A stretch of 32,755 nucleotides of DNA. Source: an uncultured Clostridia bacterium. Lineage in GTDB: Bacteria; Bacillota; Clostridia; Christensenellales; Borkfalkiaceae. Numbering within the stretch: the stretch's first letter is position 1; every line of letters starts with the position of its first letter. Below the pieces are notes generated by a model. It was not told where the DNA came from. It did not search any database and saw nothing but the letters and a program-made list of their open reading frames with translations. Where the stretch lies: assembly GCA_947629665.1 (NCBI GenBank), contig CANREJ010000014.1:1-32755 (forward strand), given 5' to 3'. Shown here in pieces: positions 321 through 28,910 of the stretch. A program made the position numbers and the translations under genes.

Positions 321-511
321 TTTGACTTGTGGCAAACTTCGTCCACCGTAAACGCAATTAAGAAACCCGGCCGCAGCGACACGCTGCAAGAAACCCGGCC
401 GCAGCGACACGCTGGGCAACGGCGACACGCCATCGTTTGACTTGCGGCAAACTTCGTCTATTGCCAACGCAATTAAGAAACTTGGGTGCAGCGACACGCT
501 GCAAGAAACCT
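321..511. repeat. Modular 67-bp hairpin repeats (two units plus partials)
   Basis: Two 67-bp units, 321-387 and 436-502, share the order TTTGACTTG(T/C)GGCAAAC, a variable middle, AACGCAATTAAGAAAC, then a small hairpin. Partial copies lie at 388-431 and 503-511. The hairpins are GCAGCG-ACA-CGCTGC at 373-387 and 488-502, an imperfect copy at 401-416, and GGCG-ACA-CGCC at 421-431. The last partial copy ends three bases before the stop codon of the leftward gene at 515. The same family, with other hairpin cassettes, occurs at 28577-28910. Confidence 0.8.
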
Positions 512-514
512 GGG

Positions 515-2518
515 TTAAGCGTCACGTTTATCGAGGATATATGTTTCGATACCTTCGAGGGCGCAGGCGGCCGCCCAGAGGTTATAGCTGAACCAACTGC
601 TGTACTCTTTTCCGTCGCTGAAACGTTCTATTGTGAGCCCGTCGCTGGGGCACCATCTTTCGCTGAGCACGCCGTATCTGCCGTAGCCCGTTTTATCGGG
701 ATACATTTCCAGACACTGCAAAATAAACGCGGTGGAATCGTCTGCGCGGTCGAGGTAGTAGGCGTCGCCCGTGAGCGAATATAAATATCTCATTGCGCTG
801 TCGGCAAGTATGCCCATGGGGTGGATATGCGGATTGGAGACGGAAGTAACGGACCCCCCGCGTGAACGCCAGCCCTTGTTTAGCGGCGCATATTCGGGGC
901 GGGAATTGTAGGCGAACCTCCACAACAGCTCGTAGTCGGCGGAATCTTTAAGGTAGCCTATGTATTTATTATCCCCCGTGATTTGGTGCAGAAGTTTTGC
1001 ACCCGTAATAAATGCGAGGTTGCCCTCTTCGTCCACGGCTTTGCGCGTGTCCATGGGAGTGCCGTAAACATTGAGTTCCGCAACAAACTTATAGTAATAA
1101 TCCTCGCCCTTTTGGGCAGAGCGCAGATACTTTTTATTGCCCGTTACAAGATACAGTTCGGCGAGCGCGGGCACGAACCAGCAGCCCGCAAACCCGTCAA
1201 AGTCGGCAACTTCCTTCCGGTCGTCCCAATAGGAGTACCCAAACGCCCCGTCGCCGCGCTGTAAGCCGGCAACCGTTTCAAGGCATTTTTCGGTGCGTTC
1301 AAGCCAAAGCGGGTTAAAGCTCTCCTTGCGCTTCTTTAAAAGCAGTATAGTCTTTAAAATGTAGTGGCACGCCTCCGCCAAAGTATAGGCAAAGTGCTTG
1401 TGTTCCTTCTCTTTGTTGAACCAGGCGGAGGTGTTCAAATCGCCGTCGAGTCTGGGTTTATAGAGGTTATAGAACATATCCGTTGCGGGATTATAGGCGT
1501 TTACTATCCTGTTGAAAATATCTTCGCCGTCCATAACGCCCGTAAAATCTATGCCGTCCAGCGCCCCGTCTATTTCGCGGGCGAGGTAGTAGGGATATGC
1601 CAGAATGGAACCGCCCGTCCAGCCTGTTTCGCACACTTCCCGCCAGGGTAGAAGGTGAGTGTCGCGGGGCGGCTTGCATTTTCTGTTGGTATATTCTCCC
1701 GATTGCCTGTCAAAGTTCAGGTTTACAAGCGAGTCTATAATGGCGTTCACCGCCTGCACGGGTGTGTTTTTATACTCCGCACGCTCCCCGCGTATCAAAT
1801 AATATTCTTCCCTTATAATTTCGTGCAGGGCGCGCCTGTCGCCCGCACGGAAATATATTCTGCCGCACGCTTCGGCCCTTTTTGCCGACTCGCAGGTGGA
1901 GGGGTTTAAAAGCTCCCTGTGCGAAAAGGTGTAGGGGAAGTTTGTATAGCCGAGGCTCACGCCCAAAACCCCGCCCGTCTGCGCGTATAGCCCGTTGTGG
2001 ATATAGTTTACGCCATACACTTGCGGGTAAACGCCCTGCGGCTCCTCTTTTGCGGCGCTCTTTATATACCCCGTAACCGTTCTTTTTCCGCCTTCGGCGT
2101 CGCTGTACGGCTGTATGGAGATTGCCGCAACGCCCCCGTCGGTGCATATTGCCGAGAGCGGCGCGGCCGCCCTGTCTGCGCGGAATTCCCACCTATCCGA
2201 GGCGAACGGAGTCGCGCCGGAATTTACCAAAAAGGGCAGGGTATAGGGGAACGAACCCTTAAAATTATTGTCGCCGTGCAGGTTGCAGGGAATGATGTTA
2301 AAGGGGTTTTTGCCGTCGGTGCGCATCTCCATTTTAAGTTTGGTATCGTATGCGCAGTCAAAGCCCATAGTGTACGAAACGTGCCCGCCGTCCTCTTTTG
2401 CGCGGCAATAGTATCTGCCGCCCCCGCACGAATATTCCATGTTACAGCCGTTCACGCTGTTTTCGGGAATTTGGTTCCACTTTCCGTCTTTTTCATAATA
2501 AAATATAAATTTACGCAT
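515..2518 (-). CDS. Putative (alpha/alpha)-barrel glycosidase-like enzyme, unassigned
   Basis: The product is a 667-residue cytoplasmic protein with no signal peptide or membrane segment. I do not recognise a family with confidence. The first 230 or so residues look beta-rich. The rest is helical, with repeated aromatic-rich segments of the kind LxxxTGxxxYL (for example near residues 455-465, 515-525 and 600-610), as in (alpha/alpha)6 toroid glycosidases and lyases. ETGWTGG near residue 298 and DFDGFAGCWFVP near residue 445 could line an active site. The start is supported by AGGTG five bases upstream. It is the last gene of the five-gene leftward pectin operon, 17 bp after the GH3 gene, so a role on pectin side chains is inferred from position. 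It could instead be non-catalytic. Confidence 0.6.
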   Translation of the reverse strand: MRKFIFYYEKDGKWNQIPENSVNGCNMEYSCGGGRYYCRAKEDGGHVSYTMGFDCAYDTKLKMEMRTDGKNPFNIIPCNLHGDNNFKGSFPYTLPFLVNSGATPFASDRWEFRADRAAAPLSAICTDGGVAAISIQPYSDAEGGKRTVTGYIKSAAKEEPQGVYPQVYGVNYIHNGLYAQTGGVLGVSLGYTNFPYTFSHRELLNPSTCESAKRAEACGRIYFRAGDRRALHEIIREEYYLIRGERAEYKNTPVQAVNAIIDSLVNLNFDRQSGEYTNRKCKPPRDTHLLPWREVCETGWTGGSILAYPYYLAREIDGALDGIDFTGVMDGEDIFNRIVNAYNPATDMFYNLYKPRLDGDLNTSAWFNKEKEHKHFAYTLAEACHYILKTILLLKKRKESFNPLWLERTEKCLETVAGLQRGDGAFGYSYWDDRKEVADFDGFAGCWFVPALAELYLVTGNKKYLRSAQKGEDYYYKFVAELNVYGTPMDTRKAVDEEGNLAFITGAKLLHQITGDNKYIGYLKDSADYELLWRFAYNSRPEYAPLNKGWRSRGGSVTSVSNPHIHPMGILADSAMRYLYSLTGDAYYLDRADDSTAFILQCLEMYPDKTGYGRYGVLSERWCPSDGLTIERFSDGKEYSSWFSYNLWAAACALEGIETYILDKRDA

Positions 2519-2535
2519 TTTTCACCTGTGATTAA

Positions 2536-4905
2536 TTATTCGGCTTCCGCCGTTGCAAAAAAGTCGCGGCGGTTGGGGTTTACTTTTACGGTATTTTCCA
2601 GCCTGTACGCACAGCACTTCTCGGCAAGGCTGTCGCTCCCCGCATAAAAGGTAAAGTCGCCCTTTTCGACAATCCAGCTCCCGTCGGGGGTTTGGAAGGA
2701 CAGAATGTTTATGTTGAATTTAAAGCGCACCGTTTTGCTCTGCCCGCTTTTAAGCGCAACCCGCTTAAAGCCTATAAGCTCCCTCGCGGGTCTTACGCAG
2801 GAGGCAAATTCGTCCCTGCCGTAGAGCTGTACGACTTCCTCGCCGTCCCTTTCGCCCGTATTTTTAACTTCCACGCACACCGTTATGTTGCCGTTGTTAT
2901 CGTGCGAAAGTTTGGGTGCGCCGTATTCAAAGTTGGTGTAGCTCAGCCCGTAGCCGAAGGGCAACAGCACGGTTGAAGGCGAATCGGCGTATCCCGTTAT
3001 GCCGAAATTTTCATGTGTGTGGGACAGAGAGCCGTTCATCTGCCCGAAATAAGCGGGAGAGTGCCCCGCATCTCTCGGCAGATCCACGGGCGTTTTTCCG
3101 CCGGGGTTATATTCCCCGCACAGTACGCGGGCAACGGCCTCGCCGCCGAAAGTTGCGGGGAACCACGCTTCAAGTATTGCGGGAATGTGTTTGTACGCCC
3201 ACTCCCAGCACAGCGGCTTGCAACCCGTGTGCACAATAACGCAGTTTCCGTTTGCGGCGTACACGGCCTTGACAAGTTCGTTCTGCACGCCGGGCAGGGC
3301 CAGGCTTGCGCAGTCCACGCCCTCGCCTGAGGAGCAGGAGGGATCCAGCCCGCTCTTTTCGCCCACGCAGAGGATAACCAAATCGCTCTCCTTTGCAAGT
3401 TTTTCCGCCTCTGCAAAGCCGCTTGTATCGCCGCCCTTGTAATCGCACCCCTCGGTAAATTTAACGCTTGCGAATTTCTCTTTTATGCCCTCGTACAGCG
3501 TTTTTGCCAAGGGATATGCCTGCCTTATATCATCGTCGAAAATATATTTGCTCTCTATTTCGCGGGGGCGTATTTTTTTGACGCTTCCGTCCGCGCCCTG
3601 GTTCATGAGGTTTATAAAGTCCGCACTGCCCGAATTTTCGGACTTTATGGAATCTATAACTTTAAGCATTTCCCAGGCCGCCACGGCGGTGTAGTGGCCG
3701 TACATCAGCCTGAGGGAATTTCCGCAGGGGCCTATTACGGCGAGCTTTGCCTTCCTGTTTTCAATGGGCAGTATGCCGTCGTTTTTAAGCAGGGCAATAC
3801 TCTTTAACGCCGCTTCAAGCGAGCCTTCGTTTGCGGCCGTGTTGTCCATGGCGGAGGCGTAATCGCCCACGAAGAAGGGGTTTTCAAACAGCCCCAGCTC
3901 GAATTTTAAAGTGAGCAACCGCAGAACAGAGCGGTCTATCAGTTTTTCGTCGATTTCGCCCGCGCGCACTGCGGCAACCAGCTCGTCGCCGTAGATTACG
4001 CGGTTGGGAAATTCCACGTCCAGCCCCGCTTCAAGGCAAAGTCTTGCCATTTCAACCGTGTCTCCGGTGATGCGGTAGCGCGTATTTAAGTGGTTTATTG
4101 TGCCATAGTCCGAAACCACCGTGCCCGTAAATCCCAAATCGTCCCTCAAAAGGTCGGTAAGCACCTGTTTGTTGGCGCACACGGGCACGCAATCTATCAT
4201 GGAGTAGCTGTTCATTACGCACTTTACGTCGGCAAGGTTTATGGCCGCCTCAAAGGGCTTTGCGTACTGTTCGCGCAAAATTTTAAAGGGCATAACCGTC
4301 TGCTGTAAATTCAGCCCGCTCTCGGTGAAGGAATATCCCAAAAAGTGCTTGCAGGTTGCGGCCACGCCGCAGGTGAGGTCGTCGCCCTGCATACCGCGGA
4401 TAAAGCTCACGGCAAAGCCGGCGCAAAGGGTGGGGTCGCCGCCGTAAGTTTCGTTGCACCTGCCCCAGCGCAGTTCGCGCGCCAGGTCAAGCACGGGCGA
4501 AAGCGCGTGCCTTATGCCGTTTGCGGCAAGCTGTTTACGGGTGAACGAAGCCATCTTTTCAACAAGTTCGGGCTCAAAAGTTGCGCCCAGGCCTATGGGC
4601 GCGGGATATTGGCACCCGCCCAAAAGACACACCGGCCCCGAAAGCCCCTCCGCGTGCATGAGCGCGGGAATATGGTGGGGGGATTTTTCCATTATATAGG
4701 TCTGTACTTTTTTAACGTACTCGCGGTAGTCGCCATGGCGCACAACGCCTAAAACGGCACAGCCCGTGGCGGGGGAGTTGAGGCTGTCGATATTTTCGGG
4801 CTTTACGTTAAGGCAGGTCAGCTGGTTCACCTTTTCTTCAAGGGAGAGTTCGGCCAACAGCTTGCGCGCACGCCCGCAGGCAGTCTTTTTGGAAATCTTG
4901 TTCAT
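2536..4905 (-). CDS. Glycoside hydrolase family 3 (beta-glycosidase)
   Basis: This 789-residue GH3 enzyme releases terminal beta-linked sugars (glucose, xylose or arabinose; the exact specificity cannot be read here). The N-terminal TIM barrel has KHFLGY (residues 186-191) and the nucleophile motif VVSDYG with Asp266. The alpha/beta sandwich domain carries GEGVDCASLALPGVQ, the usual GH3 pattern near the acid/base. A fibronectin III-like domain ends the protein. Length is normal for three-domain GH3 enzymes. There is no signal peptide, so it should act on imported oligosaccharides. The start is preceded by AGAGG six bases upstream. It lies 40 bp after the MFS gene in the leftward operon. Confidence 0.93.
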   Translation of the reverse strand: MNKISKKTACGRARKLLAELSLEEKVNQLTCLNVKPENIDSLNSPATGCAVLGVVRHGDYREYVKKVQTYIMEKSPHHIPALMHAEGLSGPVCLLGGCQYPAPIGLGATFEPELVEKMASFTRKQLAANGIRHALSPVLDLARELRWGRCNETYGGDPTLCAGFAVSFIRGMQGDDLTCGVAATCKHFLGYSFTESGLNLQQTVMPFKILREQYAKPFEAAINLADVKCVMNSYSMIDCVPVCANKQVLTDLLRDDLGFTGTVVSDYGTINHLNTRYRITGDTVEMARLCLEAGLDVEFPNRVIYGDELVAAVRAGEIDEKLIDRSVLRLLTLKFELGLFENPFFVGDYASAMDNTAANEGSLEAALKSIALLKNDGILPIENRKAKLAVIGPCGNSLRLMYGHYTAVAAWEMLKVIDSIKSENSGSADFINLMNQGADGSVKKIRPREIESKYIFDDDIRQAYPLAKTLYEGIKEKFASVKFTEGCDYKGGDTSGFAEAEKLAKESDLVILCVGEKSGLDPSCSSGEGVDCASLALPGVQNELVKAVYAANGNCVIVHTGCKPLCWEWAYKHIPAILEAWFPATFGGEAVARVLCGEYNPGGKTPVDLPRDAGHSPAYFGQMNGSLSHTHENFGITGYADSPSTVLLPFGYGLSYTNFEYGAPKLSHDNNGNITVCVEVKNTGERDGEEVVQLYGRDEFASCVRPARELIGFKRVALKSGQSKTVRFKFNINILSFQTPDGSWIVEKGDFTFYAGSDSLAEKCCAYRLENTVKVNPNRRDFFATAEAE

Positions 4906-4945
4906 TGTTTACCTCTTTTTGATTTATAAAATATAACCGCAGGGT

Positions 4946-6136
4946 TTATTTTTCGTCTTTGTTTGTGCAGAGCGGCAAAGCCTCCGTTTTGCGCTTATAG
5001 AATATCAAATATATAAGGTCGGCCACGGTCAGCGCGGCGAAAATCATGTAAAAATAGGGGTAGCCTATCGCGGAGATTATATATCCCCCGCACAGTTTGA
5101 ACACGGCGGTAAACGCTTCAAGGAAAAACCAGCACAAAACTATGCCCGTGGTGGACTTTTCAAAGCCGAGTATCCTGATTATGTGCGGTGTGGAGACATA
5201 AAGAGTTATGCCCCAGGTAATTCCCCTCGAAAGCTGGGACGCGATAAGCGCCCAGGTGGGCAAAAACGGGAGGGACTGTATAACCAGCCTTACCGCCAGC
5301 ACCCCGCAGGCAATGACCAGATATTTAAGTTCGGGCTTTGCAAACTTGTTCATAACCAGCATGGTGGTTATTTCTATCAACACAAAGCCGAGCATAACAA
5401 AGCTGTACAAATAGTCGGGGTTGCCCTTTGAAACGAGATACAGGGAGTAAAAATCGTCGCACACCTGCATACTGCCTATCATCAAGACGTAAAACAGAAC
5501 GTAGCCCATAAAATTCCCGTTGCCGAGAATACCCGTTATCGTTACCTTTTCTGTTGATTTTTCGGGCGGTTCGGGAGCCCTCACAAACAGGAATATCGCG
5601 CTTACTATAACGTACATTCCCGCCGCCACGGGGAAGGCAATCCGGTACAGCGTCTGGGCGGCGTCTCCCAGCGCCCTTATTATATTTCCCGCGCCGAAAC
5701 AGCACAGACTGCCTGTCATATAGGCAATCCCGCCGAAAACGCGCACCGAGCCGAACTGTTTGCCGCTTTCCGAGCATATCAACCCCAAAAGACTGTCCAG
5801 CAGCCCGTAGTTGGAGCTGGACATTATGCTTATGGCAATAATAAGTGCAACGGCGGCAACAAAATTCCCGCCGAAAACCAGCAGTGCAACCACAAGGGCG
5901 GCTTCAACGGCGCCCATAACCGAGAGCGCCGCCTTTGCCTTTTTGGGGGTATTGAAAAATTTTGCGTAGAGAGGGGTACACAGCAGGGCGGTCAGGGGAA
6001 TCAGCCCGATAATAATACCCAGCTGTCCCTCGGTAAAACCTTTTCCCCTCAAAAACAGACTTATATAAGGCAGGCAGAGGGACTCGCCGAACAGCCTCAA
6101 AAACAGCAATAATTTTGCTTTGGAAGTAGATTTCAT
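4946..6136 (-). CDS. MFS transporter (MFS_1-like sugar permease)
   Basis: This 396-residue integral membrane protein has about 12 predicted transmembrane segments. The N-terminal LPYISLFLRGKGFTEGQLG and the central FGSVRVFGGIAY are typical of the MFS_1-like/LacY-like branch, which imports sugars or aromatic acids by proton symport. Its ATG overlaps the TGA of the GH140-like gene (ATGA at 6133-6136), so the two should be translationally coupled. Position inside a pectin operon suggests it carries a mono- or disaccharide from pectin or exports a product. The substrate cannot be read from the sequence. Confidence 0.88.
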   Translation of the reverse strand: MKSTSKAKLLLFLRLFGESLCLPYISLFLRGKGFTEGQLGIIIGLIPLTALLCTPLYAKFFNTPKKAKAALSVMGAVEAALVVALLVFGGNFVAAVALIIAISIMSSSNYGLLDSLLGLICSESGKQFGSVRVFGGIAYMTGSLCCFGAGNIIRALGDAAQTLYRIAFPVAAGMYVIVSAIFLFVRAPEPPEKSTEKVTITGILGNGNFMGYVLFYVLMIGSMQVCDDFYSLYLVSKGNPDYLYSFVMLGFVLIEITTMLVMNKFAKPELKYLVIACGVLAVRLVIQSLPFLPTWALIASQLSRGITWGITLYVSTPHIIRILGFEKSTTGIVLCWFFLEAFTAVFKLCGGYIISAIGYPYFYMIFAALTVADLIYLIFYKRKTEALPLCTNKDEK

Positions 6137-7371
6137 GATTTATGCAATATAATAACGCGGTCGTGCCCGTCCCATGCGGGGAAGATGTAACCGTCTGCGG
6201 CTTTGTTGAAGCCCAATGGCCGCCTGCACCCGTTTCCGGGGTTGAATTCAAAGGCGTTAAAAGGGGAGTTAAAGGGCGCGCGCAGGCGTATCTCCCCGCC
6301 GTTGCAGTTGTATATAAGGACAAAATCCTCCCCCGCAAAGCATACGGAGTGGTCGTACCGCACGCCGTTATCGATAATAAGACCGGGGCGGGGCGAACCT
6401 TGCGTAAAATCAACCGACAGCATGAGTTGTTTTAAATATTTCATCTGCCGTGCGCCTTCGGCGGAGAGAGCCGTGCGCCACTCTTCGCGCACGCCGTAGT
6501 TTGCGTCGGGGTCGCCGAAGGAGTGAAACTGCATCACGGCATTGTTGCCGTAAGTAAAGCCGCACGCCCCCGAAAGCACGCTCCAATAGGCGTAGCGGCG
6601 CACGTCGCGGGCCGTCCAATAGGGCTGGGAAAAATCGTGCAGACCCTGTACAATCCCCTCATAGGAAGGCTCCCCGTCCAGAACGGGCTTAACGGGGTTT
6701 AAATTAAGCGCCTCTTCAACGTATTTGTAGTTGTCCTCTTCGTAATCGGGTTCGCCGTTTTTGCCGTTATCGGACACGTTTGCAAAGGTCTGGCCGTATC
6801 TCCTGTGCCCCGACTGGAACATGTTGAAGTCCAGCCACCCGCAGCCGTTGAACCAACGGCAGGAGCAGGTGCGCCCGAAGGGGTGGAAGGAGATAAGGCG
6901 TTCGGGATTATAGCTTTTAAGCGTCTTTGCAAAGACGTCGTACAGCGCCGGGTCTACGTCTCCGCGGATATCGCCGCCGAGGATCCATATGATGTTATCG
7001 TATTTATTGAACCGTCTGCCGAGAAAACGTGCGTAAGTTTCAACGTTGCCGCGGTCTATTATCTTATTTTTCACAAAACTTCCCCAGCAGGGGAGCAGGG
7101 CCATATAAATGCCGAGTTTGCGCGCGTATTCCACAGCCGAAGCTATTTTGTCAAAATACTCCGCACATGCCGTTTGTCCGCTTTCAAGCCTTTGGGAGGT
7201 GTGCAGTACGGTTGCCTGCACGACGTTAAAGCCCTTGCCCGCGCGGTCGGATAGGTAAAGCTCTGTTTCTGCGGGCGTAAGTTTTTCAAAAAGCAGCCAG
7301 GCGGTATCGCCCAGCCAAAAAAACGGTTTGCCGTCCTCAAACAGGTACCGTCCTTTCACCGAAAGAGTCAT
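6133..7371 (-). CDS. GH140/DUF4038 apiosidase-like glycoside hydrolase
   Basis: The product is a 412-residue TIM-barrel enzyme. FWLGDTAWLLFEKL (residues 18-31), GFNVVQ, NIIWILGGDI (126-135), SFHPFGRT (161-168), DFNMFQSGHR (181-190), LDGEPSYE (231-238) and DVRRYAYWSVLSGA follow the DUF4038 pattern of GH140. Characterised GH140 members remove apiose from rhamnogalacturonan II side chains. Asp181 and Glu234 are my candidates for the catalytic pair. A longer reading frame reaches 7527, but the extra 52 residues lie inside the pectinesterase gene and look random. The ATG at 7371 overlaps the pectinesterase TGA (ATGA), which fixes the start. There is no signal peptide. Confidence 0.88.
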   Translation of the reverse strand: MTLSVKGRYLFEDGKPFFWLGDTAWLLFEKLTPAETELYLSDRAGKGFNVVQATVLHTSQRLESGQTACAEYFDKIASAVEYARKLGIYMALLPCWGSFVKNKIIDRGNVETYARFLGRRFNKYDNIIWILGGDIRGDVDPALYDVFAKTLKSYNPERLISFHPFGRTCSCRWFNGCGWLDFNMFQSGHRRYGQTFANVSDNGKNGEPDYEEDNYKYVEEALNLNPVKPVLDGEPSYEGIVQGLHDFSQPYWTARDVRRYAYWSVLSGACGFTYGNNAVMQFHSFGDPDANYGVREEWRTALSAEGARQMKYLKQLMLSVDFTQGSPRPGLIIDNGVRYDHSVCFAGEDFVLIYNCNGGEIRLRAPFNSPFNAFEFNPGNGCRRPLGFNKAADGYIFPAWDGHDRVIILHKS

Positions 7372-8291
7372 TTTAAAAACCCCGCCTCTTTTTTGAGGTA
7401 ACGTTCGGTTATTTTGTCCGCCTCTTCGGCAGTAAGCCGTTTGGCCCACGGTTCGGGGTGCCCGCAGAACCCCGAAAGGTTGTAGTAGGAAAACCTCGCC
7501 GTTTTGTTGCGTTCGGTATCGTTCCATTTGTTTACGAGTTTATCGGCCAAATGCCCGTCGGCGGTGCAGTTTATAAACGCACACAGCCCGTAGTCTCTCC
7601 ACGGCCTGGCGAGATACACGCCCTGTTCCGCCCCGCCGTCGGTCAGCTTGCAATCTATAAAGTAAAAGCCCGTGTCTTGCTCCTTGGGGTGCGCGGGCGC
7701 CGCCAGATAGCCGCCGTGGCGGCTTTTGAGGGAGATAATTTCGCAGTCCTTGAAATATGCCTCCGCACAGCCGAAAATAAAATCCACCGTGCCGTAAATC
7801 CTGCAATTTTTAAAGATGTGCGCGTCATATCCCGTCATGTTCAGCCATTCGGGCGGAACCAGCTCGGAATCCTTTATTATGGGTTCCTTGGGGAAGGGCG
7901 CAAGGAACAGCGTGTCCTGGTGGGATAAAAGGTCGACGTTCTCGGCAAAAAACCGCTTGCAGATCACAGAAAGCGCAACGCACTGCCCGCCGGAGGGGTC
8001 GGCGTAATTTTCCACCGTAAGATTTTTGAGTTTGACGTTTTCGCCCGTAACGCACATGGTATAGGTGCGAAAAGTCTGGTAAACCCTGCCGTCGGCGTGC
8101 AGTTTGGAAGCGTAGTCGTCAAATCTGATCTTCACGCCTTCGCGGCTCTCGCCCACAAGCGTTACGTCGGAGGCTCTAAGCACGGTTTTTTGGTTGTAGA
8201 TTCCGTTTTTTAAAAAAATTTCCGTGGGACAGTCAATCCCGTCAAATGTTTTTTGCAGGTCGTCGCCCGGCCCGATAACAATTCTTTTCAT
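7368..8291 (-). CDS. Pectinesterase (CE8), intracellular type
   Basis: This 307-residue right-handed beta-helix esterase removes methyl groups from galacturonate. CE8 signatures are present: GGQCVAL (101-107), SHQDTLF with Asp126, YGTVDFIFG with Asp170, and ARPWR with Arg229, matching the Asp/Asp/Arg catalytic set. The QDT-to-DFIFG interval is about 44 residues, roughly 20 more than in secreted plant and bacterial pectinesterases. No signal peptide is present, so it should act on imported methylated oligogalacturonides. A TTG start at 8309 is possible, but the ATG at 8291 has a G-rich stretch (GGGGG) five bases upstream and fits the family start. It is the first gene of the leftward operon. 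Confidence 0.93.
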   Translation of the reverse strand: MKRIVIGPGDDLQKTFDGIDCPTEIFLKNGIYNQKTVLRASDVTLVGESREGVKIRFDDYASKLHADGRVYQTFRTYTMCVTGENVKLKNLTVENYADPSGGQCVALSVICKRFFAENVDLLSHQDTLFLAPFPKEPIIKDSELVPPEWLNMTGYDAHIFKNCRIYGTVDFIFGCAEAYFKDCEIISLKSRHGGYLAAPAHPKEQDTGFYFIDCKLTDGGAEQGVYLARPWRDYGLCAFINCTADGHLADKLVNKWNDTERNKTARFSYYNLSGFCGHPEPWAKRLTAEEADKITERYLKKEAGFLK

Positions 8292-8318
8292 AAAAACCCC
8301 CGTTTTCAAACTTCAAAC

Positions 8319-8347
8319 ATTGTATCACATTAATATATATATTGCAA
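8319..8347 (-). promoter_or_regulatory. Promoter of the leftward pectin operon
   Basis: On the minus strand TTGCAA (8342-8347) is followed by a 17-bp spacer and TACAAT (8319-8324), close to the sigma-A consensus. It lies about 28 bp before the pectinesterase ATG at 8291. Confidence 0.7.
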
Positions 8348-8372
8348 CACTATAAAACGGCAAATGTTTATT

Positions 8373-8392
8373 TTGTTAAAATAATGTTAAAA
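8373..8392. promoter_or_regulatory. Possible operator between divergent promoters
   Basis: TTGTTAAAA (8373-8381) and ATGTTAAAA (8384-8392) are direct copies 11 bp apart, one helical turn. A third TGTT lies at 8365. They sit between the two outward promoters, where a shared activator or repressor would bind. No family can be assigned, and the region is AT-rich, so chance is possible. Confidence 0.3.
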
Positions 8393-8412
8393 GTGAAATT
8401 TAAAAAAATCTA

Positions 8413-8444
8413 TTGACAAACTCCCGGCCGTGTGATAGTATAAT
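8413..8444 (+). promoter_or_regulatory. Promoter of the rightward transporter operon
   Basis: A perfect TTGACA (8413-8418) is followed by TAGTAT at 17 bp (8436-8441) or a perfect TATAAT at 20 bp (8439-8444). It gives a leader of about 65 nt before the ATG at 8515. The offset or long spacer suggests an activator-dependent promoter. Confidence 0.6.
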
Positions 8445-8514
8445 GTTACTTATTTATAAAAAAGGCGTGTAGTTGACTTTTTACGGTCGATAAAAATGAT
8501 TAATTTGTCAGAAA

Positions 8515-9195
8515 ATGCGTAAAAATGGTTCAAAATTCATATCCATAAAGCAATATCGCGCCGGTGATCTCTGTATATTTACCGCTTTGGCGGCCATAAC
8601 CGAATTGGTTTGTTACTTTTCCCGTTTCTGGTTCTCGTCCGCCGCTATATATACTTTAAACTTAATGCTTCCGTTAATAACTCTCATAATCGTTCGATGG
8701 GGATGGTGGGGAGTTTTTGTTGCGGTGTTTGAAGGCGTTCTGTACGCCGCAATCCGCGGCGGCGCCTGGCAGACCTACATAATAATGGTTGTAAGCAACG
8801 CCGCCATAGCCGCAGAGCTTCTGTTTATAAAACTGATAAAGAACGAACGGCTTTACAAGCATTGGTATTGGGCGTTCCTGCTGGTACTTACGGGCTGGGT
8901 TGCGGTAAATTTCGTAAGAGCGGGCTTATCGGCAATATTTTATAAAGACTTCGTAACACAGCTTGCAACCATGTTCGGGTTTTCCGACGGCGGCCTTCTG
9001 GCGCTTGTGATGGGCGAAATAATAATACTTGTTCTGCGCAGGCTGGACGGAATGGTGGAAAACCAGAAGGGCTACCTTCTGCGGCTCAAAAAGGAGCGGG
9101 AGGAAGAGGCCCGCCGCGACACGTTCGGGGATGAGCCGATAGATTTGGACGACGAAACGCTATCCATTCTCAACAAGCGGACGGACGATTTGTAA
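8515..9195 (+). CDS. Six-TM membrane protein resembling an ECF S component
   Basis: The product has 226 residues and about six hydrophobic segments (near 18-35, 45-60, 64-80, 86-107, 116-135 and 155-175), followed by a charged cytoplasmic tail (177-226) rich in Lys, Glu and Asp. The RWGWWGVFVAVFEGVLYA stretch (61-78) resembles the loop and helix of substrate-binding ECF S components. No ECF energising genes are nearby. The ribosome binding site before the ATG is weak. As first gene of the transporter operon it may be an accessory subunit of the sugar importer or a stand-alone transporter. Family assignment is tentative; the membrane topology is clear. Confidence 0.7.
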   Translation: MRKNGSKFISIKQYRAGDLCIFTALAAITELVCYFSRFWFSSAAIYTLNLMLPLITLIIVRWGWWGVFVAVFEGVLYAAIRGGAWQTYIIMVVSNAAIAAELLFIKLIKNERLYKHWYWAFLLVLTGWVAVNFVRAGLSAIFYKDFVTQLATMFGFSDGGLLALVMGEIIILVLRRLDGMVENQKGYLLRLKKEREEEARRDTFGDEPIDLDDETLSILNKRTDDL

Positions 9196-9250
9196 ACGGC
9201 AATAAACCGCAATAAATAAATGTGATAAAATTCCAAAAAAATTATAGATT

Positions 9251-9344
9251 GGAAGGGCGCCCTTCCGTATAATCGCTGCTTTGCAGTGATTATACGGAAG
9301 GGCGCCCTTCCGTATAATCGCTGCTTTGCAGTGATTATACGGAA
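9251..9344. repeat. 45-bp tandem hairpin duplication
   Basis: Two identical 45-bp units, 9251-9295 and 9296-9340, are followed by a final GGAA. Each contains a hairpin with a 17-bp stem and a 3-nt TTT loop, starting TTCCGTATAATC and ending GATTATACGGAA; the only imperfection becomes a G-U pair in RNA. The GGAAGGGCGCCCTTCC at each unit start is itself a perfect 16-bp palindrome, so alternative folds are possible. The unit is 15 codons long and keeps the downstream frame open. Confidence 0.9.
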
Positions 9345-9363
9345 ACATTTAACAGGAAAGGAC

Positions 9364-9537
9364 ATAGCAAAAAAAGAATATCCCGACGACGGAAGAACAA
9401 TTATAAATATGAACGTCGAGGGGTTCGGGTGGTACAAACCGGAAGAGGAGCAAAAGGCAGGCAAGTCGCTTGCAGGAAAATCCCGAAAGGAGAAAAAGAA
9501 AATCTTTCGCTCCACAAGGTTTTATATAAAAAAATAA
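9364..9537 (+). CDS. Small conserved-looking soluble protein, start uncertain
   Basis: This is a short basic protein of about 57 residues: AKKEYPDDGRTIINMNVEG, then GWYKPEEE, a Lys-rich linker and a basic C terminus. From memory, short proteins with a KKEYPDDxGRTI start occur in Clostridia, usually beginning MAKKEYPDD; I cannot check this here. At the expected position the codon is ATA (9364-9366), preceded by AGGAAAGG at good spacing. The in-frame alternatives are GTG at 9286 or 9331, both inside the hairpin repeat without a Shine-Dalgarno, or ATG at 9409, also without one and cutting off the motif. The gene may therefore be impaired or start unusually. It sits between the ECF-S-like gene and the ABC permease. 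Confidence 0.55.
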   Translation: MAKKEYPDDGRTIINMNVEGFGWYKPEEEQKAGKSLAGKSRKEKKKIFRSTRFYIKK

Positions 9538-9571
9538 GGAGGAAAATTTTTCCAAATGGAGGGCAACTTTA

Positions 9572-10675: not shown

Positions 10676-10687
10676 GGAGAAACGCGT

Positions 10688-11671: not shown

Positions 11672-11683
11672 TAAAGGTTTTGT

Positions 11684-11698: not shown

Positions 11699-11738
11699 CA
11701 TAATAAAAAATTTATAAATAATTATAAGGAGAAAAATA

Positions 11739-17768: not shown

Positions 17769-17790
17769 GTTAAAAAACTCAATAAAAAAT

Positions 17791-17829
17791 AAAAAAAATC
17801 GGCAAAGCTCGTATTTGACGATTTTTTTT
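17791..17829 (+). terminator. Terminator or attenuator inside the operon
   Basis: AAAAAAAATCG (17791-17801) pairs with CGATTTTTTTT (17819-17829), with an inner CAAA/TTTG stem, and ends in a run of eight T. It probably reduces or ends transcription after the transporter genes; the downstream genes would then be read through or use another promoter. Confidence 0.7.
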
Positions 17830-17846
17830 AAAAGGAAAATAATTTA

Positions 17847-18542: not shown

Positions 18543-20070
18543 ATTGATTTATAAATCAAGCGTTTCCGCTTGCTTTGAACTTGACAACAACAATCCCTAT
18601 TACAGCCCCGAAGGCTACAAGGTTTATCTGAACGGCGTGCAGGCCGGCGGGGAACGTAAAGAGAACGTTTTTTCACTCTTCAATCTTGAACCGGACACAG
18701 AATATTCCGTTAAAATAAGCCTTTTCGCGGAAGAAGTTAAGTTTAAAACTTGTCCCGAAACCGCGCTTGTGAATGTGCGCGAACTCGGCGCCAAGGGCGA
18801 CGGCGTTTTTGACGACACATACTACGTGCAGATGGCAATTGATATGTGTCCCAAGGGCGGAAGAGTTTTAATTCCCGCGGGCTCCTATCTGGTGCGTCCC
18901 ATAGTTTTAAAAAGCGGCGTTACGCTTGAACTCAAAAAGGACGCCGTGCTTTTGGGCGACACTCTCGAAGAGCATTATCCCTACATAAAAGCCACGCTCG
19001 ACGAGGACGACGGCGTGAACGGAAGCTGGGAAGGCGAGCCGTTCGACTGCCATCAATCATTTGTTTCGGCATACAAGCAAAAGGACTTTGCGATTGTGGG
19101 CGAGGGAACCATTGACGGCAACGCGCAAAACTCCACCTGGTGGCAAAGGCCGCGCGGCAGAAAAGTTGCGCGCCCCAGATTAATGTTTTTGAACAGGTGC
19201 CAAAATTTTGTTATGCACGGCGTAACCTGCCAACATTCGGCCGCCTGGAACCTGCACCCGTTTTTCTCGCAAGATTTGGGCTTTTATGACGTAAGGATAA
19301 ACAACCCCAAAATTTCCCCCAACACGGACGGCCTCGACCCCGAAAGTTGCGACAGGGTGGATATAGTGGGCTGTGTGTTCAGCGTTGGCGACGACTGCGT
19401 TGCCATAAAGAGCGGCAAGCGCTATATGGGAATGAAGTACAAGACGCCGGCAAGCAACCACACGCTCCGCAACGATTTGTTCCGCAACGGGCACGGCGCC
19501 ATTGTATTGGGCAGTGAAATGAGCGGAGGCGTTAAAAATTTGACGGTCAACCGCTGTATCTTTGAAAATACCGACAGGGGTTTGAGAATCAAAACCCGTC
19601 GCGGCAGGGGCAAGTACGGAGTTATTGACGGTGTGCTGTTTGAAAATATCAAAATGCACGGCGTTTTGACTCCCCTTGTAATCAATATGTATTATTTCTG
19701 CGATCCCGACGGCCATACGGAAGCCGTTTGGTCGCGCGATCCCAACATTCCCGTTGACGACGGCACACCCTATCTCGGCAATTTCACATTCCGCGATATC
19801 GAGTGTACCGACGTCGACCACTGTGCCGCCTATTTTGACGGGCTCGTGGAACAGCCCATAAATCAAATAACAATAGAAAACGTGTCTTTCTCGTACAAAG
19901 AGGACGCCGTCGGCGGTCATCCGGCAATGCTGGAATTTGTCCGCGACTACCGCAAGGAGGGCATTTACGTAGACAACGTAAACAAGCTCATACTTAAAAA
20001 CGTAACGTTCGACGGTGTTGAGGGCGAAAAGATAATAAAGAAAAATTGCGGCGAAATAATTGAATGTTAA
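18535..20070 (+). CDS. Polygalacturonase-type glycoside hydrolase (GH28)
   Basis: This 511-residue right-handed beta-helix enzyme hydrolyses galacturonan or rhamnogalacturonan backbones. The GH28 catalytic set is complete: NTD (263-265), GDDC with Asp286 and Asp287, GHG (319-321) and RIK (351-353). An N-terminal domain of about 80 residues looks fibronectin III-like and precedes VRELGAKGDG, the usual helix start. There is no signal peptide, so it acts on imported oligomers, probably as an exo-enzyme. A TTG at 18529 is also possible, but the ATG at 18535, overlapping the previous stop, fits better. Confidence 0.95.
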   Translation: MFKLIYKSSVSACFELDNNNPYYSPEGYKVYLNGVQAGGERKENVFSLFNLEPDTEYSVKISLFAEEVKFKTCPETALVNVRELGAKGDGVFDDTYYVQMAIDMCPKGGRVLIPAGSYLVRPIVLKSGVTLELKKDAVLLGDTLEEHYPYIKATLDEDDGVNGSWEGEPFDCHQSFVSAYKQKDFAIVGEGTIDGNAQNSTWWQRPRGRKVARPRLMFLNRCQNFVMHGVTCQHSAAWNLHPFFSQDLGFYDVRINNPKISPNTDGLDPESCDRVDIVGCVFSVGDDCVAIKSGKRYMGMKYKTPASNHTLRNDLFRNGHGAIVLGSEMSGGVKNLTVNRCIFENTDRGLRIKTRRGRGKYGVIDGVLFENIKMHGVLTPLVINMYYFCDPDGHTEAVWSRDPNIPVDDGTPYLGNFTFRDIECTDVDHCAAYFDGLVEQPINQITIENVSFSYKEDAVGGHPAMLEFVRDYRKEGIYVDNVNKLILKNVTFDGVEGEKIIKKNCGEIIEC

Positions 20071-20080
20071 GGTAAAAGTT

Positions 20081-21214
20081 ATGGATTATTCCGTTATTGA
20101 CAAATATATCGACAGGCTTATAGAGGACACCACGCCCGACAGACCCATATGGAACATAGAGAACATAAAGCAGGGTAAAAAACCGGCGTGGAACTATATA
20201 GACGGTTGCATGATGAACTCGCTCTACACAATCTACAAGCTGACGGGCATAAAGAAGTATATCGACTTTATAGATACGTTTGTGGATTACTATGTGTTTG
20301 AGGACGGCACCATACGCGGCTACGACGTGGAGGCGTATAATATCGACAACCTCAACGAGGGCAGGATTCTCTTTGATTTATACCGCGAAACGGGCAAGGA
20401 GAAGTATCAAAAGGCAATCGAACTTTTGCACACGCAGATACTCGGCCAGCCGCGCACGGGCACGGGTAACTTCTGGCACAAAAAAATATACCCCAACCAG
20501 GTATGGCTGGATGGGCTGTATATGGGTCAGGTGTTCTACACCCGCTACGAGGTTGAGCGCAACAACTGCAAAAATCTTACCGACATAGCAAACCAATTCC
20601 AAGGCGTTTACGACAATATGTTCGATAAAGAGAAAAAGCTCTATTATCACGGCTGGGATTGGTCCAGAACGGCGTTCTGGGCGGATAAAAATACGGGACT
20701 TTCCAAAAACTTCTGGCTCCGCGCCGAAGGCTGGTACACCGTTGCGCTCGTTGACGCTCTCAGCTATATCCCCGACGGACAGGTGGAAATAAAGGATAAA
20801 TTGAAGGCAATTTTCAAGGCCACGATCGAGGGGCTGGAACAGTATATCGACCCGAAGGAAGATATGTTCTACCAGGTTATCGACCGCGGTGGCAGCGAGG
20901 GCAATTATTTAGAAACTTCGGGCAGCGCCATGATAAGCTATGCAATGCTTAAAGGCGCGCGCCTCGGCTATGTGGATAAGCGTTTTGCCGCCGTCGGCAA
21001 GCGCGTGTTTGACGGCATATGCAAGAAGTACCTCTCGGCAACCGACGGCAAGCTCAATTTGGGCGGAATTTGCCTTGTTGCCGGGCTTGGTCCCGAAAGC
21101 AACCGCCGCCGCGACGGCTCTTACGAATACTACATATCCGAACCGGTGGTTGAAAACGACGCCAAGGGCACTGGTCCGTTCGTAATGGCGTACACCGAAC
21201 TCAAACAGCTTTAA
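20081..21214 (+). CDS. Unsaturated rhamnogalacturonyl/galacturonyl hydrolase (GH105)
   Basis: This 377-residue (alpha/alpha)6-barrel enzyme of the YteR/YesR type releases the 4,5-unsaturated uronic acid left by pectate or rhamnogalacturonan lyases. YNIDNLNEG (Asp89), GQPRTGTGNFWHKK, YPNQVWLDGLYM with the catalytic Asp144, and RAEGWY are family signatures. No signal peptide is present. The ATG at 20081 has AAGGT upstream and begins like other members; a TTG at 20060 would overlap GH28. It is the last gene of the rightward operon, 10 bp after GH28. No pectate lyase is seen in this window, so its substrates must come from enzymes elsewhere or other organisms. Confidence 0.96.
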   Translation: MDYSVIDKYIDRLIEDTTPDRPIWNIENIKQGKKPAWNYIDGCMMNSLYTIYKLTGIKKYIDFIDTFVDYYVFEDGTIRGYDVEAYNIDNLNEGRILFDLYRETGKEKYQKAIELLHTQILGQPRTGTGNFWHKKIYPNQVWLDGLYMGQVFYTRYEVERNNCKNLTDIANQFQGVYDNMFDKEKKLYYHGWDWSRTAFWADKNTGLSKNFWLRAEGWYTVALVDALSYIPDGQVEIKDKLKAIFKATIEGLEQYIDPKEDMFYQVIDRGGSEGNYLETSGSAMISYAMLKGARLGYVDKRFAAVGKRVFDGICKKYLSATDGKLNLGGICLVAGLGPESNRRRDGSYEYYISEPVVENDAKGTGPFVMAYTELKQL

Positions 21215-25886: not shown

Positions 25887-27371
25887 TTAAACTTCAACGG
25901 CATCGTAGGGTATGTTAAAGGGCGCAGTTTTAACAACCGTTTTTTCCTCGTTGTACGTCCTGTGCGGCACGGCGTAAATTTTCGCCCCGCCGGAGTGCGC
26001 TTTAAGGTCGTTGCGCATCTCCGTCCAGTCCATCAGACGCGAAAACACGTCTATATTCATATCCACCCTTATATCGCCCGCGCCGCAGGCGTACATGCCC
26101 AAAAGTTTGGCGCGGAGTCCCACCAAAATGAACTCCGGCGAGCAGATTTTCCCCGAACCGCCGCAGTGTTTGCAGGGGTTAGTGGTCTGGGAGAGTGGGG
26201 ATAGCCCTATGCGCTTGCGCGTAAATTCCACAAGTCCCAGGCGGGACATGGGCGAAACGCAACACTTTGCCTTGTCGTTCTTTAAAGCCCTTTCAAGCTC
26301 TTCCACAAGCGATTTTTTGTGCGCCTCGGCCTGCATATCTATAAAGTCCACAACCACAATGCCGCCTATATTGCGCAGTCTCACCTGCCTTGCAATCTCC
26401 CGTGCGGCGAGAATGTTCGTGTAATATACCGTCTGTTCCAGGCTGTCGTCGCCCGTAAACCTGCCCGTGTTCACGTCGATGACGGTCAGCGCCTCGGTGT
26501 GTTCAATCACGATGTACGCCCCGTTTTCCAGCTCCACCTTGGGCGAAGTCAGCTCAAAAAACTGCGCCGAAATGCCCAGCTCCTCCATCATATCCCTGCC
26601 CGTGTCGTGTAAAATCACCTGGCGACGGGTCTGCGGCGGGTATAGCTTTACTATTTTTTCCACCAGCGCGGCAAGGTGTTCCGAGCCGACGACTATGCTG
26701 TCGATATCGGTGGAGAGGGTGTCCCGCAAAACGCGTATGGGCAGGGCAAAATCGGCATACAAAAGCTCGCCCACGTCCGCCGCGGGGAAGGCTTCGGCAA
26801 TGCCCGTGTACATATTTTTAAGGTATGCGGCTTCCTGTTCCAGCTGCATGCGCTTGGCGTAGGGTGCGGAAGTCCTCATCACCAGCCCTTCGCCCTCGCC
26901 AATCAATTTTTGGGCGGTATATGTTAAGTTTTTCCTGAGTTCGGCGTCTAAAATCTTCCTTGAAATGCCAATTACGGGCGTGTTGGGCATATAAATTAGG
27001 CTCTTGCCCACAATGGAGATCCGCGAAGTTACCTTTGCGCCCTTGTTGCCCACGGGCAGTTTGACCACCTGTACCAGAAGTTCGTCGCCCACGTGCAGGT
27101 CGGGCATGGCGGGCAGGGGTTCTCCGCCGAGATATTTTTCCATGTCGGGGAAGAACTCCTCCGCCGAAAGATAACAATTTTTCTTCAAGCCGCAGTTCAC
27201 AAACGCCGCGCGCATACCGGGCAGCACGCTTTCAACGCGGCCCTTGTAAACGTTGCCCACGGCAACGTCCGTACTGCGTTTTTCAAAGTCGAAGTCGATT
27301 ATTTTTCCGTCCTCGGCAACCGCGGCAATGTAATATCCGCAAAAGGAATCGAAATACAGTGTTTTTTTCAT
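25887..27371 (-). CDS. rng: Ribonuclease G/E family endoribonuclease
   Basis: This 494-residue single-strand-specific endoribonuclease acts in RNA turnover and rRNA processing. An N-terminal S1 domain (about 37-115, GNVYKGRVESVLPGMRAAFV) is followed by the RNase H-like and DNase I-like domains. The Mg2+-binding VIDVNTG (Asp299) and VDFIDM (Asp342/Asp345) are intact. The zinc-link pair is CKHC (Cys400, Cys403). Length fits RNase G rather than the longer RNase E. The Shine-Dalgarno is weak, but a strong promoter lies about 50 bp upstream. Transcribed away from the SecB-like gene. Confidence 0.96.
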   Translation of the reverse strand: MKKTLYFDSFCGYYIAAVAEDGKIIDFDFEKRSTDVAVGNVYKGRVESVLPGMRAAFVNCGLKKNCYLSAEEFFPDMEKYLGGEPLPAMPDLHVGDELLVQVVKLPVGNKGAKVTSRISIVGKSLIYMPNTPVIGISRKILDAELRKNLTYTAQKLIGEGEGLVMRTSAPYAKRMQLEQEAAYLKNMYTGIAEAFPAADVGELLYADFALPIRVLRDTLSTDIDSIVVGSEHLAALVEKIVKLYPPQTRRQVILHDTGRDMMEELGISAQFFELTSPKVELENGAYIVIEHTEALTVIDVNTGRFTGDDSLEQTVYYTNILAAREIARQVRLRNIGGIVVVDFIDMQAEAHKKSLVEELERALKNDKAKCCVSPMSRLGLVEFTRKRIGLSPLSQTTNPCKHCGGSGKICSPEFILVGLRAKLLGMYACGAGDIRVDMNIDVFSRLMDWTEMRNDLKAHSGGAKIYAVPHRTYNEEKTVVKTAPFNIPYDAVEV

Positions 27372-27448: not shown

Positions 27449-27487
27449 TTACTTTTTTAAAAAAAGGCGCCCCAAGTACTGCTATTG

Positions 27488-27516
27488 TTGACTTTTTTGG
27501 GCAAAAAGTATATAAT
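27488..27516 (+). promoter_or_regulatory. Promoter of the SecB-like gene
   Basis: TTGACT (27488-27493), a 17-bp spacer and a perfect TATAAT (27511-27516), followed by AAGGAG at 27539 and the ATG at 27551. The two divergent -35 elements are about 40 bp apart. Confidence 0.85.
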
Positions 27517-27550
27517 ACAGCCAAAATCCAAATCATTCAAGGAGAACATT

Positions 27551-27985
27551 ATGAAAATCGACTTCAAAGGAATTACGGCCGAAGAACTTTCCTTTAAAAT
27601 AAACCGCGTGCGTTTAAACCCGGAGGACAAGCTGGATATTAAACCGCAGTTTTCCCGCCAGGTGCGCAAGGTGAACAACAACGAAAAACTCAACTTTGTT
27701 GCGCTCTCCGTAAAGATAGAAAGCACCGAGGCGGAGCCCAAGCCCTTCGACATCAACGTTACGCTTGTGGGCATATTCGAGGTCAGCGACGTTAAAAACG
27801 ATGCAGAGGAAAGGAGCTTTGTTATAGAGGCAACCAAAAATATTTATCCCTATTTGCGTTCGGCGGTAACCAACCTCACCGCAAGCGCCTACATTGCGCC
27901 CCTTAACCTACCCATCATCACGGGTCCGCTGTTTCCGGAGGATAGGGAGCAGTATGCGTTTACGGTAGGCAGCAATTTAAACTGA
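27551..27985 (+). CDS. SecB-like chaperone
   Basis: The product is a 144-residue cytoplasmic protein. It has a SecB-type layout: beta-strands with alternating hydrophobic residues (LNFVALSVKIES, FDINVTLVGIFEV), then IYPYLRSAVTNLTASAYIA and LNLPIITGPLF, close to the conserved C-terminal helix and PPxxLPxIN-like region. SecB keeps exported proteins unfolded; in Firmicutes the SecB-like proteins are little studied. A reading frame from 27485 exists, but promoter, AAGGAG and family start support 27551. It stands alone, divergent from rng, with no toxin-antitoxin genes nearby. I am fairly sure of the family, less of the function. Confidence 0.78.
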   Translation: MKIDFKGITAEELSFKINRVRLNPEDKLDIKPQFSRQVRKVNNNEKLNFVALSVKIESTEAEPKPFDINVTLVGIFEVSDVKNDAEERSFVIEATKNIYPYLRSAVTNLTASAYIAPLNLPIITGPLFPEDREQYAFTVGSNLN

Positions 27986-28055: not shown

Positions 28056-28150
28056 ACACGGTGTAAGGACAACACCGTGTTCGGGCATCGCCTGCGCCTT
28101 TTTTTGCGCAGGCTCATCTCGCGCGGCAAAACAGCGCACTGTGCTGTTTT
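28056..28150. repeat. Cluster of three perfect hairpins
   Basis: Three successive perfect inverted repeats lie in gene-free sequence: ACACGGTGT/ACACCGTGT (28056-28080, 7-nt loop), GCCTGCGC/GCGCAGGC (28090-28113, 8-nt loop) and AAAACAGC/GCTGTTTT (28128-28150, 7-nt loop). The third resembles the hairpin in the shared module at 38-58, including its GCACTGT loop. Only the first part of the right island carries this set. Confidence 0.8.
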
Positions 28151-28400
28151 GAATACTCCGTGCTCGTCCTTGCCGTGATAAAGAAGGGCGCGCATATTAT
28201 ATAATCGCGGCAATTCCCACCGCCGAGGCGCAGGTATGCGCAAATGGGGGCTTGCGGCGCAGGTTTTCTCGCCAACGGCAAGGAAAAACCGTTGGCTCGG
28301 TCATCGTTCGCGCGGGAACGAATGCGCACACTCATCTCACTTCGGCACGCACAGCGCACAGTGCTGTGCTATGAAATGCCTCGCTCGTCCTGCTTGCAAC
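28140..28400. repeat. Shared repeat modules, right island
   Basis: Positions 28313-28390 nearly copy 1-77, and about 28172-28263 resemble about 86-178. Here the second module comes before the first, the reverse of the left island, and a partial copy of the first precedes both. A further hairpin, GCCAACGG/CCGTTGGC (28271-28296), lies between them. No gene is credible in this interval. Confidence 0.75.
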
Positions 28401-28576
28401 GTAAATTATGCTACCGAGCGGCGTGTATAAGCGTCGTTCTGCTGTGTTGCGCTGCGGCAACTTTCAGTCATGTACTTCTATGTACACTCCTTCAAGTTAT
28501 CCTCGCGCGCCTTGCATAACTCGCTTCTACCCACCGCATTACTCTGTAATTTCAGCTCCCGCAATTTGCTCCCGCA
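28401..28576. other. Gene-free stretch between repeat families
   Basis: I see no gene here. It contains TGTAC/GTACA around a 6-nt loop near 28468-28484 and a recurring CCCGCAAT motif near 28558-28578. It has the look of degenerate repeat sequence, but I find no second copy in the window. Confidence 0.4.
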
Positions 28577-28910
28577 ATAAAGAAACTTGGCCGCAGAGCC
28601 TCTCTGTTTGACCTGCGGAAAAGTAAGCCAAGTGTAAAAGTAATTAAGAAACCAGGGTGCAGAGCCTCTCTGTTTGACTTGCGGAAAAGTAAGTCAAGTG
28701 TAAAAGTAATTAAGAAACCCGGATGCAACGTAACGTTGCCGCAATAAAGAAACCCGGCCGCGGCGACACGCCGCCGTTTGAATTGCGGAAAAGCAAGTCA
28801 AGAACTAACGCAATTAAGAAACCCGGATGCAGAGCCTCTCTGTTTGACCTGCGGAAAAGTAAGCCAAGAACTAACGCAATTAAGAAACCCGGATGCAACG
28901 TAACGTTGCC
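28577..28910. repeat. Modular 66-68-bp hairpin repeats (five units)
   Basis: A partial unit (28577-28606) and units starting at 28607, 28673, 28777 and 28843 follow the order TTTGACyTGCGGAAAAGTAA, a spacer (GTGTAAAAGT or GAACTAACGC), AATTAAGAAACCCGG, then a small hairpin. The unit at 28673 is lengthened by a second hairpin at 28761-28773. The hairpin varies: CAGAG-CCT-CTCTG (28594, 28660, 28830), GCAACG-TAA-CGTTGC (28725, 28895) and CGGCG-ACA-CGCCG (28761). TTGACTT and AAGTCAA in one unit also pair. Same family as 321-511. Confidence 0.85.

Follow-up and report, generated by a model that had tools for sequence, protein, structure and literature searches.

Integron attC sites, which are located 3′ of genes, are conserved in structure rather than in sequence. 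The repeat family described here shares the conserved structure and the location at gene 3′ ends, and differs from attC in being scattered over chromosomal genes, in carrying a hairpin at one end only, and in that no IntI was found above cut-off in the genomes searched. A second comparison is offered by the BOX elements of Streptococcus pneumoniae; in the portion of their description drawn on here (PMC3049150) they resemble the present family in being modular, composite intergenic repeats with a tandem module, in their enrichment between convergent genes and in having no proven transposase of their own. BOX elements are described from streptococci, a stop-codon hairpin and hairpin exchange are not among the features given in that portion, and it is by description only that we set the two apart.

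The closest described elements are REPs, whose stems, in the available part of PMC3733652, measure 5-13 bp and occur in variants with alternative complementary residues; their loops are short, they lie near ORFs, and their termini supply a stop codon; tagged REP families carry GTAG/CGTC tags and are tied to RAYT transposases. Elsewhere, REPs located at most 15 nt from a stop codon reportedly cause ribosomes to stall (PMC12306157). As far as these extracts go, the present family is likewise high in copy, intergenic and close to gene ends, with short stems, short loops (2-3 nt in REPs, 3 nt here) and stem variants, and in both systems the ends of the element are able to supply a stop codon. The preliminary description of this DNA had likened the repeats to composite REP/BIME elements: the resemblance to REPs stands for copy number, stem and loop sizes and complementary stem variants, but the comparison with BIMEs fails, since BIME units alternate in orientation whereas those found here run head-to-tail. 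The family further differs from REPs in that its unit is longer, ~45 nt of it forming a conserved frame, in its head-to-tail arrays and in lacking the GTAG/CGTC tag, and a Y1 transposase was not detected in unit-rich genomes. Firmicutes are not named among the hosts of tagged REPs in the extract of PMC3733652, whereas RepRanger, by another definition, lists predicted REPs in Bacillota (extract of PMC12306157). A survey of the open literature, with subscription papers mostly outside its scope, gave no description of this repeat family.

We consider the chances about even that these repeats form a genus-wide, non-autonomous intergenic family of ~66-69 bp units which works like REPs. Copy number, stem covariation, hairpin exchange, placement at stop codons and recurrent gains or losses at one slot all point to such a REP-like family. 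An enzyme recognising the hairpin in single-stranded DNA would spread the units, and those at gene ends would be retained, since proteins there keep their ends unaltered; the hairpin may have a further role in tuning translation termination or in shielding mRNA 3′ ends. In the species of the window, head-to-tail amplification would have built the arrays, and hairpins would be swapped when units recombine or when the template switches from one unit to another. A high-copy family of this kind in gut Clostridia would open to experiment the question of what moves REP-like repeats in the absence of RAYT, and that of the effect of a stop-codon hairpin on translation termination and mRNA ends.

Repeat units of the window

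The window is the entire contig of 32,755 nucleotides (C14) within the draft genome, of 1.86 Mb and 91% complete, of an uncultured Clostridia bacterium (G000). By nhmmer it contains six full units of 66-67 nt and four shorter units, all on the forward strand. The preliminary description had placed two clusters at 321-502 and 28577-28910, and both are present there in the sequence and in the nhmmer matches; its constant frame and four hairpin cassettes were also confirmed.

The first cluster opens with a full unit at 321-387 (nhmmer model 1-67; R3 68.4 bits), whose terminal hairpin GCAGCG-ACA-CGCTGC occupies 373-387. This is followed by a short unit at 388-414, which runs from AAGAAACC (model 40-66; hairpin CAGCG-ACA-CGCTG at 402-414), a bare hairpin, GGCG-ACA-CGCC, seen in the sequence at 421-431, and a second full unit at 436-502 (model 1-67; R3 72.6 bits) that ends in GCAGCG-ACA-CGCTGC at 488-502. 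A further short unit lies at 503-530 (nhmmer 503-528, model 40-65), and its hairpin, TAAGCG-TCA-CGTTTA at 516-530, contains one G.T pair; contrary to the earlier statement, then, not all stems are perfect. A minus-strand ORF at 515-2518 has its stop codon at 515-517, at the edge of the same hairpin (ORF list and sequence).

In the second cluster, a 5′-truncated unit at 28568-28606 (model 28-66; hairpin CAGAG-CCT-CTCTG at 28594-28606) is fused to another repeat at CCCGCAAT. Full units follow at 28607-28672 (model 1-66; R3 48.8 bits; CAGAG-CCT-CTCTG at 28660-28672) and at 28673-28739 (model 1-67; GCAACG-TAA-CGTTGC at 28725-28739), the latter with an R3 score of 78.6 bits, the best covariance-model score inside the window. 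A short unit at 28740-28774, running from CGCAATAAAGAAACC (nhmmer 28740-28773, model 33-66; GCGGCG-ACA-CGCCGC at 28760-28774), precedes two more full units, at 28777-28842 (model 1-66; R3 51.7 bits; CAGAG-CCT-CTCTG at 28830-28842) and 28843-28909 (model 1-67; R3 73.3 bits; GCAACG-TAA-CGTTGC at 28895-28909). The gene of a trypsin-like protease (28987-30231) starts 78 bp past the last of these. Rfam gave no matches in the window; in the loci of six relatives (E up to 1) it gave five, every one below the gathering threshold.

Copy number and distribution

With the second cluster (28577-28912) as query, BLAST gave 71 matches within G000. The 185.8 kb around these matches contain 142 nhmmer units (E up to 0.01), grouped into 44 arrays, a copy number that is a lower bound because nhmmer covered only this part of the genome. 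These counts, like the covariance-model scores in the window, exceed what chance would give. The arrays are mostly intergenic: one of the 44 lies within a called ORF, and several extend 13-59 nt into the end of an ORF.

Two alignments were used beyond this genome, A1 with 75 units, 74 of them from G000, and A4 with 60 diverse units. The A1 covariance model found the family in 44 of 93 genomes of the genus, in a scan that scored 54 candidates per genome and in which G000, G006 and G014 were probably under-counted; the repeats thus recur both elsewhere in the genome and in relatives, as expected of the family proposed in the preliminary description. The A4 model matched 10 of 248 genomes of the order, seven in the genus and three outside it with one or two copies each, the outside match in G329 being weak. 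Plain BLAST found the family in 6 of 41 genomes, and the wider detection by the models indicates that the units diverge in sequence but keep their layout.

A strict DNA pattern applied to 84,980 species, a set that may omit the window's own genome, returned six stretches in two assemblies, Lapin-021 bin90 and Lapin-011 bin85, both titled uncultured Clostridia bacterium; the word Lapin suggests a rabbit origin. Plasmid and phage searches gave no match, and among viral contigs there was one pattern match without the hairpin and none for a second pattern. A copy in G186, which belongs to another family, matches one in G022 at 98.6% over 141 nt, reaching the contig end and the neighbouring gene. 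The G022 copy also matches a second G186 copy, in a different context, at 94.4% over 90 nt. What G186 has in common with the genus could be due in part to contamination of the bin, or to a gene having been transferred together with its 3′ end.

Covariation of the terminal hairpin

The terminal hairpin comprises a 6-bp stem and a 3-nt loop. Its positions are 99.7% paired in A4, with both-sided changes at all six pairs, and 98.4% paired in A1, with such changes at five of the six; the co-variation on both arms noted in the preliminary description is thus seen at every pair across 60 units. Slid controls in A4, both helices together, were 24-42% paired. Summed over the two helices, cells with both-sided stem changes number 69 against 14.5 in shuffles for A1 and 100 against 38.9 for A4, and the terminal hairpin accounts for 69 of the 69 and 98 of the 100, respectively. 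Within this hairpin, the A4 cells, which count sequences and not evolutionary events, comprise 98 double changes, one one-sided change and one unpaired cell; the stems therefore seem to change as blocks and not via intermediates.

The other helix, hairpin 1 (CTTGAC/GTCAAG, columns 1-6 with 21-26), is paired in 84% (A1) and 80% (A4), with no double changes in A1 and two cells in A4, and was rejected as a conserved structure. The use of G-U pairs to tell selection on DNA from selection on RNA gave no discrimination, with 3 of 324 pairs in element hairpins and 6 of 300 in terminators from the same loci, found with a hairpin finder that favours Watson-Crick stems.

Placement at stop codons

A point not made in the preliminary description is that, on the opposite strand, the hairpin of a unit often begins at a gene's stop codon, a pattern more marked in relatives than in G000. 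Read in this direction, the order is stop codon, hairpin, a conserved GTWTCTTAATTGC block (GTATCTTAATTGC-like), ~25 variable nt, and a AATCAAAC- or GTCAAG-like end. Relatives were sampled around model matches (16 stretches in G004, 20 in G084 with 22 of the 23 listed matches, and 19 in G017); 65 of 69 model matches were used, four partial or weak ones being dropped, and 54 sites had both neighbours called. Flanking genes were called with our own codon-score caller, with longest-ORF starts. The distance from hairpin end to the facing gene's stop is at most 3 nt in 14 of 16 cases in G084 (0.95 expected for a random point in the present-day gap), 8 of 11 in G004 (expected 0.39) and 4 of 12 in G017 (expected 0.22), and in G000 it is at most 15 nt in 6 of 13 (expected 0.65). 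Facing units farther from the stop number 8 of 12 in G017 (>3 nt) and 7 of 13 in G000 (>15 nt). In AT-rich relatives the stop codon is often itself the opening trinucleotide of the stem, and in the gene's direction it forms the first three hairpin bases in 10 of 16 cases in G084 and 5 of 11 in G004. The exceptions are units that adjoin a start codon, at a gene which we take from its sequence to be dnaG-like (G004, G084) and at a presumably nrdG-like gene (G083); no gene faces these units.

Among the 28 arrays of G000 with both neighbours called, 24 have a co-directional gene upstream, and the neighbours are arranged +/+ in 14, convergent in 10, -/- in three and divergent in one. With our own finder, a separate terminator was located past the unit at 25 of the 54 sites in relatives, and the idea that the unit is an ordinary terminator was rejected.

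Placement as exact as this at stops exceeds what tolerance alone would predict, and a function fits as well. It is conceivable, though in our estimation unlikely, that the unit is a cis-acting 3′ UTR RNA element under selection, in which the hairpin and the GTWTCTTAATTGC block would influence how translation terminates, how ribosomes are released or how mRNA decays, its multiplication in some species being secondary. Such an element would account for the exact stop-codon placement, in many cases between the stop and an intrinsic terminator, for stem pairing that is kept despite sequence change, even at the same slot across species, and for the conserved single-stranded blocks, and it agrees with the ribosome stalling reported in the extract of PMC12306157 for REPs up to 15 nt from a stop. 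Several features of the units are difficult to reconcile with it, namely the units that adjoin start codons with no gene facing them, the long arrays in G000, and the variety of the genes served. The ten genes scanned out of 29 stop-abutting host genes encode EF-G, EF-Ts, GMP synthase, a gyrase A C-terminal domain, TrkA, a pyruvate:ferredoxin oxidoreductase-like protein, a MreB-like protein, a GH88 protein, a phosphatase and one protein without a family; this sample is unrelated and has no common pathway.

Slots compared between species

Behind a gene that we take from its sequence to be ypeB-like, a unit is present in 9 of 30 species, with its hairpin starting -3 to +3 nt from the end of the stop (by eye), and the terminus of the protein is alike with and without a unit. 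At this locus in G000 the unit lies farther along, beyond a terminator. Mapped on the protein tree, presence at the slot changes at least six times, four of these changes being forced by well-supported branches (shuffled labels average 7.9), so gains or losses of the unit have recurred at this one position. The 21 of 30 species without a unit at this slot also weigh against a selected RNA element, as does the imperfect hairpin in two of the nine (G017 and G083).

At the slot of a presumed parB, the facing stops are TAG in G000 and G006, TAA in G014 and TGA in G017, 0 to 6 nt from the unit hairpin; no single stop sequence is therefore required. G013 has just a 64-bp gap and a terminator here, and four close species carry units. 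At the slot of the window's protease gene, G006 has one unit and one unit without the hairpin, and G014 and G017 have none (by eye). We infer both the mobility of the units and any RNA role they may have, the former from their dispersal, their gain or loss at fixed slots and the G186 copies.

Search for a mobilising enzyme

The preliminary description had proposed looking for a dedicated transposase, for example of the TnpA-REP type, and none of this (Y1) type came to light in the unit-rich genomes tested: the RAYT-type domain PF01797 was not detected in G000, G006, G014, G017, G020 or G021, drafts in which a gap is possible. Among 11 genomes it was found in one, G001, which shows no units, and as a control it matched 5 of 14 known genomes. 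With both strands counted, a GTAG or CGTC lies no more than 6 nt 5′ of the hairpin in 6 of 120 cases in G000 and 1 of 56 in relatives. Reverse transcriptase (PF00078) was present in 5 of 11 genomes and was not found in G000, G006 or G017; retrotransposition, an idea suggested by units without a 5′ part, was set aside as G000 has no such match. The integron integrase model TIGR02249 had no match above cut-off in 14 genomes, which argues against integron-like recombination, and below cut-off it matched 13 of the 14, ordinary tyrosine recombinases matching too, as in all 14 controls. The Y2 transposase PF04986 matched 0 of 14 genomes, and the control was also silent (0 of 14 control genomes). Inspection by eye of the first 60 residues of each gene product at eight array loci showed no transposase, and the idea of an autonomous copy among the arrays was dropped.

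That no enzyme was found counts against the REP-like reading, as does the fact that neither a target duplication nor a polymorphic insertion was seen. The other explanations for the G186 copies, the precision of placement at stops beyond mere tolerance, the facing units of G017 and G000 that lie farther from the stop and the few units at start codons count against it too. A more specific version, which we hold tentatively and regard as doubtful, is a tag-less REP-like system of Clostridia with its own hairpin-recognising recombinase; here the frame would move and land exactly at the edges of coding sequences, mostly at stop codons and sometimes at start codons, and the hairpin would be an exchangeable recognition cassette.

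Arrays and hairpin exchange

Multi-unit arrays in G000 are same-strand, head-to-tail runs with a 66-nt period, arrays having been grouped by strand, with a single weak opposite-strand match near others at C6:367-431. Among 116 full units there are 15 pairs in different arrays with near-identical frames (~45 nt, at most two mismatches); because seven of them link C51 with C74, two related contig ends, the pairs are not independent. The hairpin class differs in eight of these pairs, in line with the earlier proposal that hairpins are exchanged independently of the frame, and agrees in seven, against 16% agreement in random pairs; frame and hairpin thus remain partly linked. By eye, the breakpoints of the eight swapped pairs fall at GAAACC(C) in six cases, inside the hairpin in one, and are diffuse in one. 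The clearest swap involves two arrays on contig C32, 938 bp apart, which share a leader stem and an identical frame and differ in their hairpins; each terminates by the stop codon of a different gene, one 0 nt and the other 4 nt away. Leaders of several kinds are found ahead of units, which thus belong to a wider mosaic of intergenic repeats.

Such patterns might also arise with neither dedicated mobility nor structural selection, through unequal recombination, and through microhomology template switching at hairpins during replication that copies one arm onto the other and so keeps stems perfect. The head-to-tail arrays with their 66-nt period, the shorter units, the joins between different repeat families at brief stretches of common sequence such as CCCGCAAT, and the block-like stem changes (one one-sided cell against 98) would all be expected, and in the available part of PMC8794818 hairpins are proposed to originate and be maintained through template switching. 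On its own, however, this process leaves the dispersal over many loci, the nucleotide-exact placement at stops and the repeated filling of slots unexplained, and we regard it as improbable. Classical REPs moved by a RAYT (Y1) that is missing from the draft genomes are very improbable: the units agree with the extract of PMC3733652 in copy number, in their location at gene ends, in having stem variants and in the dimensions of stem and loop, and G000 is 91% complete, but PF01797 occurs in 1 of 11 genomes, the unit-free G001, though the control responded, GTAG/CGTC lies near the hairpin in just 7 of 176 cases, and the units run head-to-tail.

Within the arrays of the REP-like family favoured here, hairpin classes differ in position: in five tests, uncorrected, the AGAG class occupies the last array position in 0 of 12 (p 0.009), and the AGCG-TTA class is commoner there (p 0.03).

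Repeat families accompanying the REP-like units

Further intergenic repeat families, recognized from sequence, adjoin both unit clusters of the window at 1-240 and 28200-28565; one example is GCGCACTGTGCTGTGCTATGAAATGCCTCGCTCGTCC, and a second comprises the hairpin TGTACNTCT-TGTACA, then CGCTTCTAACC. Modules from these flanking repeats were found again in intergenic regions of relatives; such regions are therefore mosaics made up of several repeat families. Upstream of single units in G014, a relative of the same genus, lies a second modular family of the form GGGGAGCTG-[hairpin]-CTGAGGGG (stretches L069-L080). Its single frame accommodates differing perfect hairpins, e.g. GTCACC-GATA-GGTGAC and GGCTGC-GAA-GCAGCC, and hairpin swapping is thus not confined to the REP-like family studied here.

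Two arrays in the window's own genome, G000, end at TTGAC directly past the last hairpin (stretches L011, 1393-1459, and L068, 3006-3072). By sequence, this TTGAC resembles the -35 box of a putative promoter of the following gene, and the promoter-like strings at these ends read TTGACT-17-TATAAT and TTGACT-17-TAAATT.

Other features of the window

A long perfect palindrome, with parts GGAAGGGCGCCCTTCC and TCGCTGCTTTGCAGTGA, occurs in two tandem copies at 9255-9345, upstream of a sugar ABC-transporter-like operon. Within a plant-cell-wall sugar locus (2536-21214), transporter-like genes are surrounded by GH3, GH28 and GH88 proteins together with pectinesterase and apiosidase-like ones. A SecB-domain protein (27485-27985; PF02556, E 1.5e-11) is also encoded in this Clostridia genome, its gene divergent to that of an RNase E/G (25887-27371).
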